From the NCBI RefSeq assembly GCF_003144115.1, contig NW_020312001.1, forward strand, positions 710,722 through 774,721: 64,000 nt of DNA, in the 5' to 3' direction. The notes under the pieces were generated by a model, which saw only the letters and a program-made list of their open reading frames with translations, made no database searches and was not told the origin of the DNA. Numbering within the stretch: the stretch's first letter is position 1; each line of letters opens with the position of its first letter. The position numbers and the translations under genes were made by a program. Positions 39,161 through 63,658 of the stretch are shown here, piece after piece. The DNA is from Tilletiopsis washingtonensis (Eukaryota > Basidiomycota > Exobasidiomycetes > Entylomatales).

Positions 39161-42100
39161 ATGTCCTCTGACGGCGGCGACCTCTACATGTCCGACGGCG
39201 GCAGCGACTACGACGTGCCCGCCGTCAAGAAGAAGCCTGCCGCCAAGGCCTCTGCAAAGCCGCGCGCCAAGCCAGCGGCGGACAAGGCGCCCAAGGCCGC
39301 GGCGGCGCCCAAGAAGAAGAAGGAGCCGCTGGCGCGCAAGAGCAACGAGGGTGCCAGCGCCAGCGAGTTTGACTTTGACGGCGACGAGAGCATCTTCGAG
39401 CACCCCGAGGTGCTCGCGAAGACTGCTCCGGCTGCGGCCGGTGGGTCGAAGTCGGCCACGCAGACGTACCAGAAGGTGAGTAGTGCAGCGCGTCAGGGCA
39501 GCGCAGCTGCTGATGTGCTGGCCTGCCTCAGCTCTCGCAATTGGAGCACGTCCTGAAGCGGCCGGACACGTACATTGGCAGCGTCGAGCACCACGAGGAG
39601 GAGCTGTGGGTGTACGACCCGACGACGCAGCAGATGGCGTACCGGTAAGTGGGCTGCAGGCGCTGCGGCAGGCGCGCTGCTCACATGTGCGGCGGACAGG
39701 AAAATCTCCTACGTGCCGGGCTTCTACAAGATCTTTGACGAGATTTTGGTCAACGCCGCCGACAACAAGGTGCGTGCTGCGGCGCTGGCGCTTGTGCGTG
39801 GGCTGACGCGCTGCTGCAGGTGCGCGACCCGACGATGGACACGATCAAGGTCACGATCAACAAGGAGGAGGGCTCGATCACCGTGTGGAACAACGGCCGC
39901 GGCATCCCCGTCGAGATGCACGAGAAGGAGGGCATCTACATCCCCGAGCTCATCTTCGGCAACCTGCTCACGTCGTCGAACTACGACGACGACGAGGACA
40001 AGGTGACGGGCGGCCGCAACGGCTACGGCGCCAAGCTCGCCAACATCTACTCGACGTCGTTCACCGTCGAGACGGCGGACAAGAAGTCGGAGAAGAAGTA
40101 CGTGCAGACGTTCACCGACAACATGAGCAAGGCGGGCAAGCCGAAGATCACCAAGGGCGGCAAGACCGAGTACACGAGCATCAGCTTCAAGCCCGACCTG
40201 GCGCGCTTCAAGATGGAGCGCATCACCGACGACACCGAGGCGCTGATGATGAAGCGCGTGTTCGACATGGCCGGCACGGTCAAGGACTGCAAGGTCTTCC
40301 TCAACGGCGAGCGCCTCAAGGTCAAGACGTTCAAGCAGTACGTCGAGATGTACGTCAAGGCCATCAACGAGCTGAGCGGGCAGCCGAAGCTCGACGAGAA
40401 CGGCGACGTGGCGGGCGCGACGCCGGCCAAGCAGACGATCATCTTCGACACGCAGGTCGACAAGGGCCGCACGTGGGAGGTGGCGTATGCCGTGTCCGAC
40501 GGCCAGTTTCGCCAGGTGGGTGTGTGTGCCCGACGTGTGCAGTGCTGCAGCTGACCCTCTGCGCCGCAGTGCTCGTTTGTCAACCACATCGCGACGATTA
40601 AGGGCGGCAAGCACGTCGACATGGTCACGGCGCAGGTCGAGACGAAGATCATCGAGCTGCTCAAGAAGAAGAAGACGGGCCCCATCAAGGGCTCGCAGGT
40701 GCGGCAGCAGCTCTGGATCTTTGTCAACTGCGAGATCATCAACCCAACGTTCGACGGCCAGACGAAGGAGACGCTGACGCTCAAGCCGAGCGCGTTTGGG
40801 AGCAAGTACACCGTGTCCGACGAGGTCATCAAGAAGAGTGAGTGCAGTCGCAGCCGCGAGGCCCGGCTCTGCTGACACCCTGCGCCAGTCATGAAGGCGG
40901 GCGTCGCCGACAATGTGCTCTCGTTTGCCAAGTTCCAGCAGGAGAAGCAGATGAAGAAGCTCGACGGCCACAAGCGCAACCGCATCACGGGCATCGTCAA
41001 GCTCGAGGACGCCAACAATGCGGGCACGCGGCGCGCCGCCGACTGCACGCTGATCCTGACTGAGGGCGACTCCGCCAAGGCGCTGGCCGTGTCGGGCCTG
41101 ACGGAGGTGGGGCGCGACAACTTCGGCGTGTTTCCGCTGCGCGGCAAGCTGCTCAACGTGCGCGAGGCGTCGACGGAGGCGATCCTGAAGAACGTCGAGA
41201 TCAACCACATCAAGACGATTCTCGGCCTGCAGCACGGCAAGGTGTACAACAGCGTCGACAGCCTGCGCTACGGCAGCCTCATGATCATGACGGACCAGGA
41301 CCACGACGGCTCGCACATCAAGGGCCTCATCATCAACTTCCTCGACCACTTCTACCCCTCGCTGCTCAAGCAGGCCGGCTTCCTTGTCGAGTTCATCACG
41401 CCGATCGTCAAGTGCACCAAGGGCAAGCAGGAGGTGTCGTTCTTCACGCTGCCCGAGTACGAGAACTGGAAGGCGGCGCACGCCGACGGCAAGGGCTGGG
41501 TGATCAAGTACTACAAGGGTCTCGGAACGAGCTCGGCGCAGGACGCCAAGAAGTACTTCCGCGCCATGGACAAGCACCTGCTGCCCTTCGACACGACGCA
41601 GCCCGGCGACCGCGAGCTCATCGACCTGGCGTTCAACAAGAAGAAGGCCGACGACCGCAAGGAGTGGCTGCGCCAGTTCCGCCCGGGCACCTTCCTCGAC
41701 CACAACATTGCCAAGGTGCCGCTGGCCGACTTCATCAACAAGGAGCTCATCCTCTTCTCGATGGCGGACAACGTGCGCTCCATCCCGTCAATGGTCGACG
41801 GCCTCAAGCCGGGCCAGCGCAAGGTCATGTTTGGCTGCTTCAAGCGCAAGCTCAAGGCCGAGATCAAGGTCGCGCAGCTCGGCGGCTACGTCTCCGAGCA
41901 CTCGGCCTACCACCACGGCGAGCAGAGCCTGTACATGACGATTGTCAATCTCGCGCAGGACTACTGCGGCGCCAACAACGTCAACATCCTCTCGCCCAAC
42001 GGCCAATTCGGCACGCGGCTCATGGTGCGTGGCGTGTGAAGATGAGGCGCTGCAGGGGCTGACACCTCCCACAGGGCGGCAAGGACGCGGCCTCGGCACG

Positions 42101-44136
42101 TTACATCTTCACGAACCTGCCGCCCATCACGCGCACCGTGTTCCACCCGTCGGACGACCACCTGCTCAACTACCTCAACGACGATGGCCAGAGCATCGAG
42201 CCGGAGTGGTGCGTGGCGCCGAGTGCGTGGCCTGGCCGCCGACGCTGACGTGCTGCACAGGTACATGCCGACCGTGCCGCTGATCCTCATCAACGGCGGC
42301 GAGGGCATTGGCACAGGTGAGCAACGCCGATGCGACTCGCTTAGCGCTTCCGCTGACCCGTCCCAGGCTGGAGCTCCTGGGTGCCCAACTACAACCCCGC
42401 CGACGTCGTCGCCAACCTGCGCCGCCGCATGGCTGGCGAGGAGTACGTGCCCATGACGCCGTGGTACCGCGGCTTCACGGGCCCGATCGTGCAGTCGGCG
42501 TCGGACCGCTTCCGGTGCTCGGGCATCATCCGGCAGGTCGACGACAAGACGTGGGAGATCACCGAGCTGCCGATCCGCACGTGGACGTCGTCGTACAAGG
42601 AGTGGCTCGAGGAGCGCGTCGTCGGCTCGGAGAAGAGCCCGGCGACGATCAAGGCGAGTGCGACGTGAAGGGGATGGCCCACCACATGCTGACACCCTCT
42701 GCCTGCAGGAGTACAAGGAGTACCACACCGACACGACGGTGCACTTTATCATCGAGCTCAACGCGCGCGGCATGGCCGAGGTCAAGGACCAGGAGGCGGC
42801 CGAGACGTACTTCAAGATGCACCACATGCTCGCGACGTCGAACATGGTCCTCTTTGACCAGAACGGCAAGATCAAGAAGTACACGACGCCCGAGGAGATC
42901 GTGGAGGACTTCTACCTCATGCGCCTGAGCTACTACCAGAAGCGCAAGGTGCGCTGCAGCACGTGCCCGCCCTCCGTGCCTCACCACTGACCCGGCTTCT
43001 GCAGGACTTCCTCGTCGAGGAGCTCAAGACGGTGTACGAGCGCCTCTCGAACCAGGCGCGCTTCGTGCAGATGATCATCAAGCGCGAGCTCATCGTGTCG
43101 AACCGCAAGCGCGGCGAGATTGTGGCGGAGCTGCGCAAGCACCAGTTCCGCCCCTTCCCCAAGCAGGCCAAGGGCGCCATCGCCGCCGACGTCGACGACA
43201 ACCGCCCGGAGGACGAGGTGGCCTTCCTCGAGGGCGGCGACAGCGCCGACTCGGACTTTGACTACCTGCTCGGCATGGCCATCTACACGCTCACCCGCGA
43301 GAAGGTGCGTCGCAGCAGGCAGCATGACGCGGCTGCAAGCACTGACACTGCATCTGCCAGGTCGAGCGTCTGCTCGCCCAGCGCGACGAGAAGGAGGCCG
43401 AGCTCACGGCGCTGCTCGGCCGCACGCCGCAGAACCTCTGGGATGAGGACCTGCACAACTTCACGACGCAGTGGGAGGTGCGTCGCCATCGGGAAGCGGG
43501 CGAGGACTACGGCTGACATCACACACCTCGCAGGCTCTGCTCACCGAGGACGAGCGCCGCCTGAAGGACGTGAGCAAGAAGAACAAGGCCAAGACGCTCA
43601 AGAAGACGAGCGGCAAGAGCGGTGCCGCCGCACGCAGCATCGTCAGGAAGGCCGTGCCGCTCTCGGACGACGAGGGCGACGACGACTTTGTCATTGCGGC
43701 ACCGAAGAAGGCCGCCGGCGGCTCGAGCGCAAAGCGTGCTGCCAGCGGCGCGCTCTCGGACGACGACCTGGCGCAGCTGGGCCGGCCCAAGTCGCGCAGC
43801 AGCAGTCCGGCGCCGCCGAAGAAGGCCAAGACGCTCAAGCAGGGCACGCTCTCTGCGTTCCGGCGCGACGCTGCCGACGACTCCATCGAAGCCATCGAGC
43901 TGCCGGCCAAGCCCAAGGCGGCGCCTGCTGCAAAAGCGCGCGTTGCGTCGGGCAGCAAGGCCAAGCCCAAGGTGCTCGTCGACTCGGAGGACGACAGCTT
44001 CATGGAGGAGGCCGCGCCGCCGGCTCGTGCCGCGCCCTCGGCGCGCGCCGGCCGCAGTGTCAAGGCGGCCGTCAAGTATGTCATGTCCGAGGACGAGGAC
44101 GAGGAGGACGGCGAGAGCGTGTATGGCTCGGACTGA
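39161..44136 (+). CDS. TOP2: DNA topoisomerase II
   Basis: Thirteen exons: 39161-39475, 39532-39644, 39700-39769, 39820-40515, 40570-40837, 40889-42024, 42075-42208, 42261-42316, 42367-42653, 42709-42948, 43005-43304, 43361-43477 and 43534-44136, 1444 residues, normal for eukaryotic TOP2. The GHKL ATPase shows ILVNAADN, NNGRGIPV and GGRNGYGAK. The transducer contains QTIIFDTQVDKG. The TOPRIM domain has LTEGDSAK and TDQDHDGSHIKGL. The breakage-reunion domain has the catalytic tyrosine in SARYIFT (about 876). The C-terminus is a long acidic/basic Ser-rich tail with likely nuclear signals. The enzyme relaxes and decatenates DNA by double-strand passage. Intron 9 (42654-42708) begins GC instead of GT. 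Confidence 0.98.
42654..42708 (+). other. Non-canonical GC-AG intron inside TOP2
   Basis: The exon ends in AAG, the intron begins GCGAGT, has a CTGAC branch-type sequence, and ends in CCTGCAG. Only this donor joins SPATIK to EYKEYHTDTT in phase; the nearby GT donors break the frame. Confidence 0.85.
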
Positions 44137-58777: not shown

Positions 58778-60117
58778 ATGGCTGCCCAGGCTCAGCAGTT
58801 CCAGCAGAAGGCCGAGTACTTCGTCGCGCAGGTGCGTGCTGCGTGTCCGGCCCGGTGCGCGCCGCGGCTGCCGCCTTATCGCGCGCAGCCTGCGCGCCGC
58901 CCGGGCCTGTGCTGCTGCCGTGTGCTCTGCTGACTCTCGAGCTCCATCAGATCGACAAGGAGGTGCGTTGAGGGCTCATGGCTGGCGTGGATGCGAGGCT
59001 CGCGGCGGATGCGCTTGTTGCACGGCGGCGCGGCTGCAGGGTCTGCGGTGGAGGCGGCGCTGGACGTGCACATCTTCCAGCGCAGCTGCCACGCTCGCAC
59101 AGCTGGCTCGACCACGCCGCACAAGCGCTCGCCGGCTCACGCCTGTCTCCCTCAGCTGTCCAAGTACCCGCAGCTCGTCAAGCTCGAGCAGACGACCAAC
59201 ATCCCCAAGGCCTACGGCGCCATCGGTGCCTTCTCGCTCTTCACCATCGTGCGTGCCTTGCGGCTGACGGATGCCGCTGTCTGTGCTGACCCTCTGCCTC
59301 GCACAGCTCGTCTTCTTCAACATGTGCGCCGCTGTGCTGCGTGATGCCCCTTGCGCTGTCTGACACCCTCTGCAGCTTCGCCGGCTTCCTGACGAACCTC
59401 ATCGGCTTCGTGCTGCCCGCCTACTTCTCCATGCGCGCGCTCGAGACGCCGCAGCCGCAGGACGACGTCCAGTGGTGCGTGCGCGGCGCACACAGGAAGC
59501 CCTGATGCTGCTGCTGACGTCTCTGCGTCCTCTCCGTCTCTGCTTCTCGCTCTGCGCCCTGCTGCGCACAGGCTCACCTACTGGGTCGTCTTCGGCGCCT
59601 TCAACTTCGCCGAGTCGTTCGTCGACCTGATCCTCTACGTGCGTGGCGCTTGCCGGGCGCTTGTGTGGAGCACTGGCTGACCTTCTCCCGCAACAGTGGT
59701 GCGCCGGCAGCATGACACAACGCAGACGCCGAGCAGAGTACTGACCGCGCGCCGCGCTGCAGGTTCCCCTTCTACTACACCTTCAAGACCCTCGCCATCG
59801 TGTGGCTCATGCTGCCGCAGACGCAGGTGCGTGAAGAGTCGCGAGAGCCGGCAGGCTTGAGGCACCGGGCCGCACTGCCTCGCATGGACAGGCACGCCAG
59901 CGCGCCATGTGCAGTGAGGCAGCGCCGTGCCACTGTGCCTCGAACCACGACGACTCAGCACGAGATGTGGCCTTTCCTGCATCCCGCTGACCTTTGTGCT
60001 TCTCCTCAGGGCGCCAAGATCGTGTACCACCGCGCCCTCCGGCCGCTGTTCCACTCGTCGTCGCGCTCGGCCAGCCACACGACGCCCGTGGCGCCCACTG
60101 CCGCCGACATCAACTAA
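58778..60117 (+). CDS. YOP1: YOP1/DP1 (REEP5-type) ER membrane-shaping protein
   Basis: Nine exons: 58778-58831, 58951-58962, 59156-59248, 59307-59323, 59376-59474, 59572-59638, 59697-59698, 59763-59826 and 60010-60117, 171 residues. The TB2/DP1/HVA22 domain reads FNIFAGFLTNLIGFVLPAYF, then SM, QWLTYWVVFGAFNFAESF, and LILYWFPFYYTFKTLAIVWL, then MLPQTQGAKIVYHRALRPLF. This is diagnostic. The protein forms hairpins in the tubular ER and bends the membrane with reticulons. The gene is remarkably fragmented for its size, with exons of 12, 17 and, as best as can be read, 2 nt (the TG of the Trp in LYWFPF), and introns of 51 to 193 nt. Confidence 0.9.
59697..59698 (+). other. Putative 2-nt micro-exon of YOP1
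   Basis: TG lies between two canonical introns, 59639-59696 (58 nt) and 59699-59762 (64 nt). Each has a GTGCG donor, a CTGAC branch-type sequence and a CAG end. Joining TAC, TG and GTTC gives Y-W-F in the conserved LYWFPFYY. Skipping the two bases breaks the frame. Confidence 0.7.
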
Positions 60118-61124: not shown

Positions 61125-63658
61125 ATGAGCGACATTCCTGCCAGCACGATCCCCGTGTGAGCGCTGCCGCACGAGGGCCGCACGGCCACGCCTGCTGACG
61201 CCTCTTCGCAGGGCGTGCTCTGAGTGCCGCGCGACCAAGGTCCGCTGCCTGCCGCTCGCCGAGCCGGGCGGCCGCTGCAAGCGCTGCGAGCGGCTGTCGC
61301 TCGAGTGCGTCTACCTGGCGCACCGCAAGGGCCGCAAGCCGACGGTCAGGTGAATGGCGCAAGACGTGCTCCTCTTGCCTCGCGTCTGACATGCTCCACA
61401 GCCGCTCCAGCGAGGCCGGGCCCTCGGCCAGCCCAGGTGCGCACAAGAAGCAGCGTCTCAACTCGGCGCACGGCTCCGCTGCCGGCAATGGCTTCGGGCG
61501 CGCCTACTCCAACGGCGTCGCCTCGGGCTCGTCGGTCGCGTCGCCGGCGCAGCAGGCGCCGGCGCCGATCAGCCTGGCACGCAGCTCGGCCTCGCAGGCC
61601 CAGGTGCTGAGCCGCCCGCCGCCGTCGCTCGCCGACCTGCTGCAGCCGTGGATGGGCTCGGACCCGTCGCTGCTCGCGCACATCCCGCCCAGTCCGCGTC
61701 CGCCCCCGTGGGAGCATCTCGACCCCGTCAGCCTCGAGATCGTGACGCTCGAGGAGGGTCGCCAGCTGTTCGCCTTCTTCTTTGCCTACTACCTGCCGTG
61801 GTGTGCCATGTGTGAGCCGCTCTCGCATGCTGCTGCCAGCGTTGCCGCTCACGCTTAGCGCAGTTGATCCCACTCTCCACACGCACGACTACGTGCGCTC
61901 TGCGTCGCCCTTTCTGTACTGCGCCATTTTGACCATCACAGCAAGGCTAGCCATACCCGCCGACGAGGCGACAGACGAGCACCGTCGTTCACCGGTGCCC
62001 ATCCTGGCGCGTGCGGCCCTCAAGCGGCGGCAGCTCGCTACGCACGTCGACCTGCTGCGCACGTGGAGCTTCAAGGACGACGAGCCGCGCATCGAGACGT
62101 GCCAGGCGCTCTTCTGTCTCGCCACGTGGAAGGAGCCCGACGACCGCCTCTCGTACCTGCACTGCGGCTTCAGCTTCCGCATCGCCATGGCCATGGCGCT
62201 CGACGCCAAGCAGAACGTCAGCGACAAGGGCGATGCCAACGCCGAGGCCGAGCACCGCTGGTTCCTGAATCGCCAGCGCACGTGGCTGGCGCTCTTCATG
62301 CAGGATCGCACGCAGTGCATGCACTACCTCACCACGCCCACGTTCCCGCACGACAACGAGCTGATCACCGAGTGCACCATGTGGCACGCGCAGCCCGGGA
62401 CATTCGTCGACGACAAGCTACGTGAGTCTGCCGTGCTTGCGCCATAGAAGACCACTGCTGACGTTTCCTCGCAGAGTGCGCGAGCGTCGACTGCCGGCGC
62501 ATGCAGAGCAAGTATCTCGCAGTCATCAGCCGGCTGGCGCCGGACCACGCCAGTGCCAGCAGCTCGCACAGCGCGCTGGCCGAAGGGCCCAACGTGCTGC
62601 TGCCGGCGCTGCAGAGCGAGGTGCGCGAGTGGAACGCGCGCTGGCACGGCGAGGTGCAGCGCGCGCACGCCGGCATCGATCCGGCAGAGTGGGGCCACAA
62701 GAGCACGATTCTGGAGATCTGGATCAACTCGATCGAGCTGCACGTCTCGACGCTCGGCCTCAAGCACAGCTTCCAGCACGCGCGCCAGGCCGACCTCGGC
62801 TCGCTGCTGACCGACATGCCGGCGCTCTGGCCGTGTGTGCGCACCGCGCGCGCCATCCTCATCGCGCTCACAGCGCTGCCGCCGCTCTACTTGCGCAGCA
62901 CTACGGACGGCGTCGGCCTCCTGGCGCCGTGGGCAGCGCTGCTGCTCTGCCGTCTGGCGTCGATTCAGCGCATGCAGAAGGGCGGCGAGAGCACTGCGGC
63001 GCAGAGCATCGACATAATCCGACGCTGCCGCGATGCCTTCTCCGCGTGCATCCTCACAAGCACAGACAACGCTCGGCTTTTTGCGCGCACCCTCGACGGC
63101 ATTCTGCAGGAGACGACCGCTAAGGCTGCAGCGCACGCTTCGGACGAGCCGATCCTCGCGGCCGGGCAGCGCACGAGCCGTGGCACGCCGCCGCGCGGCT
63201 GGCTGTGGTCGAGCGACTCGCTGTCGGGCCGCAACGTCTCGCCGAAGCGCGAGCAGACCGACGCCTCGCCGCCGTCGCAGGCATCCGAGACGCCCAACGG
63301 TGCACCCTTGGCGGACGCCTCTTCGAGCGCACATGCGGACGCACTGCTGCTGATGAGCGCCACGAGCAACGCGGCGTACAACGCTCCGCCGCAGCTCCCA
63401 CCTGCGCGTGCGGCAGCCCCGTCGAGCGCCGCTGCTGCCCGGGCTCCGCCAGTGGGCCTCGCACCGATGCTCTCTGCGCCCGACGCTCCGTCGCAGTACG
63501 CGCAGCAGGCTGCAGCGCCGCAGGACATGGATCTGATGGGCAACGTCGGCGACTGGCAGCCGCGGCAGGACGAGGCGAGCAATGCGGCGTTCGAGGATCT
63601 GCTGCGCTTCCTCGACAGCGGGCTGGGGCCCTTCGAGCAGGGCGCGCTGCAGATGTAG
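61125..63658 (+). CDS. Zn(II)2Cys6 fungal transcription factor
   Basis: Exons 61125-61156, 61212-61349, 61402-61811, 61864-62421 and 62475-63658, 773 residues. The zinc cluster lies near the N-terminus with spacing C-x2-C-x6-C-x9-C-x2-C-x6-C, followed by the basic RKGRKP linker. The middle homology region has SLEIVTLEEGRQLFAFFFAY, then FDPTLHTHDYVRSASPFLYC and AILTITARLA, which is the typical regulatory domain of GAL4-type factors. Helical segments with DRTQCMHYL follow, and the C-terminal 170 residues are Ser/Ala/Pro-rich, ending in an acidic/hydrophobic FEDLLRFLDSGLGPFEQG that could be an activation helix. No target pathway can be deduced, since the neighbours are not an obvious cluster. 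Confidence 0.9.

Follow-up and report, generated by a model that had tools for sequence, protein, structure and literature searches.

The YOP1 gene and its introns

The window in this work refers to the whole stretch of 64,000 nt that was analysed (C4:710722-774721), and the genome that was searched comprises 18.7 Mb in 32 contigs with a G+C content of about 67%. Its introns and genes are of a kind that suggests a basidiomycete. The YOP1 gene was identified in the window, and its features are listed in Table 1 together with those of a second site that is described below. The predicted protein matches the Pfam profile PF03134 at 110.7 bits (cut-off 27.2), and the match covers positions 1-77 of the 77 profile positions. 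We take this protein to be of the YOP1/REEP5-6 subtype and assume for it the ER tubule-shaping function of the PF03134 family, so that YOP1 is presumably an ER-shaping membrane protein. None of the PDB chains matched YOP1 by sequence, and no relative was found in scans of viral and prokaryotic contigs.

Table 1. Positions of the YOP1 features in the window and of the glucanase site.
Feature	Position	Strand	Description	Basis
YOP1 gene (TB2/DP1/HVA22, REEP5/6-like)	58778-60117	+	9 exons, 516-nt CDS, 171 aa	spliced translation and Pfam PF03134
YOP1 exon 1	58778-58831	+	54 nt	
YOP1 exon 2	58951-58962	+	12-nt micro-exon, encodes IDKE	
YOP1 exon 3	59156-59248	+	93 nt	
YOP1 exon 4	59307-59323	+	17-nt micro-exon	
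YOP1 exon 5	59376-59474	+	99 nt	
YOP1 exon 6	59572-59638	+	3' end ...CTC TAC, phase 0	
YOP1 intron 6	59639-59696	+	58 nt, GTGCGT...CTGAC...CAACAG, phase 0	
YOP1 exon 7 (predicted)	59697-59698	+	TG, 2 nt, bases 1-2 of conserved Trp codon	enumeration, Pfam scores, paralogue
YOP1 intron 7	59699-59762	+	64 nt, GTGCGC...CTGAC...CTGCAG, phase 2	
YOP1 exon 8	59763-59826	+	starts G TTC CCC TTC TAC TAC	
YOP1 intron 8	59827-60009	+	phase 0, LPQTQ/GA	
YOP1 exon 9 and stop codon	60010-60117	+		
Glucanase locus L102, with the 2-nt exon AT (predicted)	C21:57800-60300	minus	between 58- and 66-nt GTGAGT introns	

All eight introns of YOP1 start with GTGCG. Seven of them have CTGAC as their last branch-point-like match, and intron 2 has CTCAC instead. 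In intron 5 the last match is far from the intron end (53 nt), and the spacing from CTGAC to the intron end is 15 nt in intron 6 and 17 nt in intron 7. With overlapping matches included, the pattern GTGCG-CTGAC-YAG was found 30 times in the window, whereas shuffled sequence gave an expectation of 13.65, and this excess indicates that the pattern is a real intron signal in the window.

Two further features of the window were observed. A likely Zn2Cys6 transcription factor gene, read by eye from ACSECRATKVRC..., is located downstream of YOP1 at about 61125-63658 on the forward strand. The AT skew of positions 40001-44000 (0.196) is higher than that of all other 4-kb steps of the window.

The predicted two-nucleotide exon and its alternatives

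Two adjacent canonical introns of 58 and 64 nt, each with GTGCG, CTGAC, and CAG, had been proposed in a sequence-only reading to leave only TG between them, and this arrangement was confirmed as introns 6 and 7 of Table 1. All one-step and two-step excisions within 59572-59826 were enumerated for introns that are 40 nt or longer, start with GT or GC, and end with AG. The second step acted on the product of the first step so that nested (stwintron-like) schemes were covered. The enumeration gave 17,956 schemes, and 5,777 of them keep the full-length frame. The product AESFVDLILYWFPFYYTFKTLA, which carries the conserved LILYWFPFYY, was obtained only by removing introns 6 and 7 in either order (2 of the 17,956 schemes). 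No further route to LILYWFPFYY was found among the 34,937 schemes obtained with an intron minimum of 20 nt. The 2-nt exon is supported, as no other splicing solution that was found preserves the conserved Trp together with the frame, and the proposal that TG is needed for both is borne out by the enumeration and the Pfam scores. The same reading had dismissed a 41-nt exon, and its arithmetic was right, since an exon at 59697-59737 leaves an intron of 25 nt (59738-59762); such an exon would also put extra residues ahead of FPFYY, as read from the sequence.

YOP1 thus appears to contain the 2-nt exon TG, an observation that we regard as confirmed at the level of the DNA. The TG is flanked on each side by a complete intron with donor, branch point, and acceptor, and no equivalent excision supplies the frame and the conserved residue. 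The mature junction predicted with TG is TAC-TG-GTTC (CTCTAC-TG-GTTCCCC), and mRNA junctions that read CTCTACGTGTTC, carry an insert, or read solely CTCTACGTTCCCC would be at odds with it.

When the window was scanned strictly for pairs of canonical introns separated by 1-15 nt, three placements were obtained, which are the YOP1 TG and two others. In first-order Markov sequences of the window length, 0.38 such pairs were found on average with the spacings of 1-15 nt pooled, and at least one pair was found in 14 of 60 sequences. The spacing by itself is just modestly improbable, so the case rests on the frame, the Trp codon, and the paralogue. The two other placements share one candidate exon of 12 nt (GTCATCAAGATC) at 2838-2984 of the window on the minus strand.

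The nearest rival in Pfam score is a single GC-AG intron of 122 nt (59641-59762) that would replace Trp with Val (LILYVFPFYY) and would need no micro-exon. This model is in frame, inserts nothing, and scores 107.3 bits, which is just 3.4 bits below the Trp model. When the position was varied on a domain fragment, Trp scored 114.0 bits, the residues F, L, G, S, R, Y, and V scored 109.8-110.9 bits, and deletion of the residue scored 107.0 bits. Trp is genuinely preferred, but by a modest margin, so the Pfam score would not suffice on its own to rule out Val. However, the donor of this intron (GCGTGG) sits 2 nt inside a full GTGCGT donor, the intron would enclose another full set of splice signals (branch point, acceptor, and donor), and the paralogue has Trp at this position with an intron inside that codon. 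We consider the Val model very unlikely, and a cDNA that carries TACTGGTTC would be incompatible with it. Alternative splicing of TG, in which the TG-skipping mRNA would be abundant and have a regulatory role, is more improbable still. Without TG the frame runs open through 195 codons to a stop that lies past the last intron, so classical nonsense-mediated decay (NMD) is not expected to remove that mRNA. However, with TG skipped the latter half of the domain is lost and the Pfam score falls from 110.7 to 51.4 bits, and open frames are presumably common at such G+C content.

The frame can also be kept by a single GT-AG intron with one end shifted (59639-59733, 59639-59736, or 59665-59762), which makes the protein 8-9 residues longer. 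These three models lower the Pfam score to 92.9-94.7 bits, both of the shifted acceptors lie past the CAG nearest downstream of the branch point, and the shifted donor GTGGAG differs from all eight YOP1 donors, so we regard them as extremely improbable. A stwintron, in which a splice signal of an external intron is interrupted by an internal one and nothing in between is kept, has a next to negligible probability at this site. Two short fungal introns that nearly abut are the setting where stwintrons occur, as described in the cited part of PMC5639578. None of the nested excisions enumerated gives LILYWFPFYY, and removal of the whole of 59639-59762 (124 nt) shifts the frame. A recursive splice site with a zero-nt exon was also rejected because the TG between acceptor and donor is needed for the frame.

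The paralogue and the probable origin and removal of the two introns

One other member of the family was identified in the genome by an exon-by-exon search. This paralogue (L001) is located on the minus strand of contig C15 and scores 76.7 bits against PF03134 once spliced. It has a phase-2 intron with donor GTGAGT inside the homologous Trp codon, TG/G (...SWSW/IPFYF), which is the position of YOP1 intron 7. Its next intron is in phase 0 after LPQTR/GA, which is the position of YOP1 intron 8. The two coincident positions with matching phases suggest common descent. No intron was found in L001 directly before the Trp codon, so the position of YOP1 intron 6 is empty there. As the TG/G intron is common to both genes and the upstream intron is missing from L001, intron 7 with its donor is probably ancestral, and intron 6 is probably an extra intron that was gained 2 nt upstream. 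The intron 6 position may instead have been lost from the paralogue.

The source of intron 6 was sought within the genome. The region 59625-59775 matches only itself, and an introner (copied intron) origin was rejected as no near-identical copies were found in the genome. No support was found for intron 6 as a local duplicate of intron 7, since 499 of 1000 shuffles reached the same score. Against intron 3 (59249-59306), intron 6 came out somewhat above its shuffles, of which 14 of 300 reached the same score, and this was the strongest result in a set of six additional comparisons within the gene.

In the history that we propose, an old phase-2 intron would have split the conserved Trp codon as TG/G, and a second intron would have been inserted later, 2 nt upstream and after the TAC codon, so that TG was left as its own exon. 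U1 covers positions -3 to +6 of a donor. U1 on the second donor would therefore overlap the AG of the first intron, and at AG-TG-GT the 3' splice-site factors of intron 6 and U1 on intron 7 could not sit together. The two introns could hardly be handled simultaneously, which argues for stepwise removal. Both introns are short and have a full set of signals, so intron definition would suffice for each of them. Introns 6 and 7 are likely excised one after the other by intron definition, and the order would be indifferent since the same mRNA would result. A U1 snRNA search with the Rfam family RF00003 gave no match, and since the controls were likewise without match, this result carries no information.

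The products of splicing errors would differ in their fate. Retention of intron 6 or intron 7 gives in-frame stops at codons 128 and 130, respectively. Both stops are upstream of the last intron, so these transcripts are likely NMD targets. The harmful product would be the one in which donor 59639 is joined straight to acceptor 59762, with TG lost and the frame shifted. A kinetic preference for near splice sites is the probable safeguard against such skipping. We give a probability of about 0.91 to the whole explanation, in which the YOP1 2-nt exon is constitutive, an old phase-2 intron was followed by a later upstream insertion, and the introns are removed stepwise. Computation established the sequence anatomy in this explanation, as well as the fact that the solution is unique and that an intron position is common to both genes; the actual RNA, the stepwise removal, and the gain of the upstream intron are inferred.

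Very small exons in the rest of the genome and in other organisms

A second site of the same design was identified in an exo-beta-1,3-glucanase gene (L102) whose best PDB match is 3o6a (E 5.7e-42). The gene model begins inside the gene, and the site was considered together with loci L104 and L105. After an exon ending in ...FETAGSGW come, in this order, an intron of 58 nt, the dinucleotide AT, an intron of 66 nt, and T-GCC-TGG..., which would give ...FETAGSGWIAWAWK... with the mature junction GGATGG-AT-TGCCTGG. The enumeration gave 33,545 excision schemes. With each order of a two-intron scheme counted, 27 of them are free of stops and preserve the two flanks. Among these, the AT pair alone has GT donors throughout and adds no residues. 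The other scheme without an insert requires a GC donor and replaces Ile with Ser, and single GT-AG introns were found only with 12-23 residues, starting LDDTLLTGISSS, in place of that Ile. The four PDB alignments inspected have exo-glucanases with FEYTG-GWVFWSWK at this site, where nothing is inserted behind GW; the stretch itself is weak (15.3 bits, E about 0.08). In two glucanase paralogues of the same genome the corresponding DNA is uninterrupted and encodes GSGWIQWSWK and SSGWIAWTYK, both of which have Ile at the AT/T codon. The Pfam match ends far upstream of the site and gives AT no support (AT 39.3, insert 40.4, and skip 40.9 bits). The predicted AT stands as the second 2-nt exon of the same design in this genome, with the paralogues as its strongest support, and it lends independent support to the YOP1 TG.

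The survey of the whole genome covered introns with GTG(A/C)G donors where the first intron has a CTGAC branch point, and exons of 1-2 nt in other settings may be missed. Introns 2 nt apart with GTGCG donors gave 12 matches against 13 for the reversed-pattern control, which is no enrichment. With GTG(A/C)G donors, the matches were 43 against 20 for introns 2 nt apart and 35 against 16 for introns 1 nt apart. Exons of 1-12 nt before GTGCGT donors were matched 158 times against 81 for the reversed pattern, a control that is imperfect because coding sequence past a true acceptor can mimic a donor. The surrounding DNA was obtained at 41 of the 43 sites with a 2-nt spacing and at 29 of the 35 with a 1-nt spacing. 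The window itself contains one further match to the 1-nt pattern, and its strict scan gave no pair at that spacing.

Codon bias was scored for 77 placements in 70 loci, some of which overlap, and 36 of these are without a usable second intron. Among the best 32 of the other 41 placements, YOP1 ranks first (10.4), the false candidate L098 is close behind (10.1), and the glucanase AT exon is just 19th. The score is also good for L030 and L020, which are both wrong on reading the sequence. The position of L098 and the glucanase exon makes the score a weak guide. Five candidates were taken to the sequence level, and several more were judged from translations. The candidates that could be resolved as false are acceptors ahead of coding sequence with a chance GTGCG or GTGAG, or they are longer real exons. 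The real exon is about 20 nt in L098 (glutathione peroxidase; KCGFTPQ) and 16 nt in L069 (C1 domain), and a 25-nt exon fits better than 4 nt in L020 (transporter). The coding sequence reads on in L005 (PHD finger) and through LCVVP in L007 (monooxygenase). All five of these families were named by eye. L066 and L055 were rejected for in-frame read-through, and L030 has an 18-nt exon giving HTSG instead of 9 nt.

Other candidates were observed. A possible 1-nt exon, G, at 436-552 of L103 (C5:561800-563400) would join ESDY to RTSLIMPHL. A donor shifted 4 nt downstream restores the frame there too, and no Pfam domain above the cut-off was found in L103. A 10-nt exon was observed near 1525 of L025 in a phosphatase-like TDFDGTIT motif (FLTDFDGTIT), and a 12-nt exon was observed near 1516 of L024 in a DDI1-like protease (HQAQ; GRIHQAQLKLG), with both exons and their families judged by eye. 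The candidate in L097 lies at the 3' end of a gene.

Exons of this size had been called extremely rare in the sequence-only reading. They are rare but not unprecedented, as the cited passages document 1-nt exons in plants (PMC4674806, PMC8831610) and in Fusarium (PMC12940212). Arabidopsis APC11 has a constitutive 1-nt exon for which intron definition and recursive removal of the introns one after another were suggested (PMC4674806), and the argument for stepwise removal in YOP1 is the same as the one in that part of the paper. The 1-nt exons of APC11 and VPS55 are reported across land plants (PMC8831610). As in YOP1, these plant exons lie between two introns and are essential for the frame, going by the cited passages (PMC4674806, PMC8831610). 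However, they are 1 nt, RNA-verified, and conserved between species, whereas the YOP1 exon is 2 nt, belongs to a fungus, and is predicted from DNA. The 1-nt exon of the Fusarium CYP621A P450 genes was inferred from sequence and later confirmed in SRA reads, and that paper describes itself as the second report of an exon so small and the first in a fungal gene; its introduction also cites 2-5-bp exons for Arabidopsis, Drosophila, and human (PMC12940212). It resembles the YOP1 exon as a fungal ultra-small exon that is inside a conserved motif and is essential for the frame, as far as the cited part describes it (PMC12940212). However, it belongs to one P450 subfamily of a filamentous ascomycete, whereas two unrelated genes of one GC-rich fungus are concerned here.

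The YOP1 introns resemble stwintrons as two back-to-back short introns that need consecutive splicing, according to the part of PMC5639578 cited. They differ in that both introns are complete and TG is kept, whereas nothing in between is kept and one signal is split in stwintrons. Stepwise excision at closely set AG and GT is likewise described for recursive splicing with zero-nt exons, but two coding bases stay in the predicted YOP1 mRNA. Within the open-access literature searched, outside which most subscription papers fall, no 2-nt exons were found by that wording, and the matches for micro-exons with basidiomycete introns were Fusarium and Trichoderma work.

Ultra-small exons are already known, and what is added in this work is their recurrence in one compact genome together with paralogue controls. 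The two predicted 2-nt exons each have a paralogue as a natural control, which is the TG/G intron in common for YOP1 and two paralogues without an intron at the Trp-Ile junction for the glucanase. A compact fungus thereby offers a direct test of stepwise splicing by intron definition. Such exons easily escape gene finders and RNA-seq aligners, so the annotations of these genes may well be wrong. At even odds, this genome may use 1-2-nt exons repeatedly in unrelated genes (the YOP1 TG, the exo-glucanase AT, and perhaps the 1-nt G on contig C5). Its spliceosome, acting by intron definition on introns of 50-70 nt, would then have no effective lower limit on exon size, and a newly gained intron would be tolerated at nearly any site, including one just 2 nt away from an older intron.
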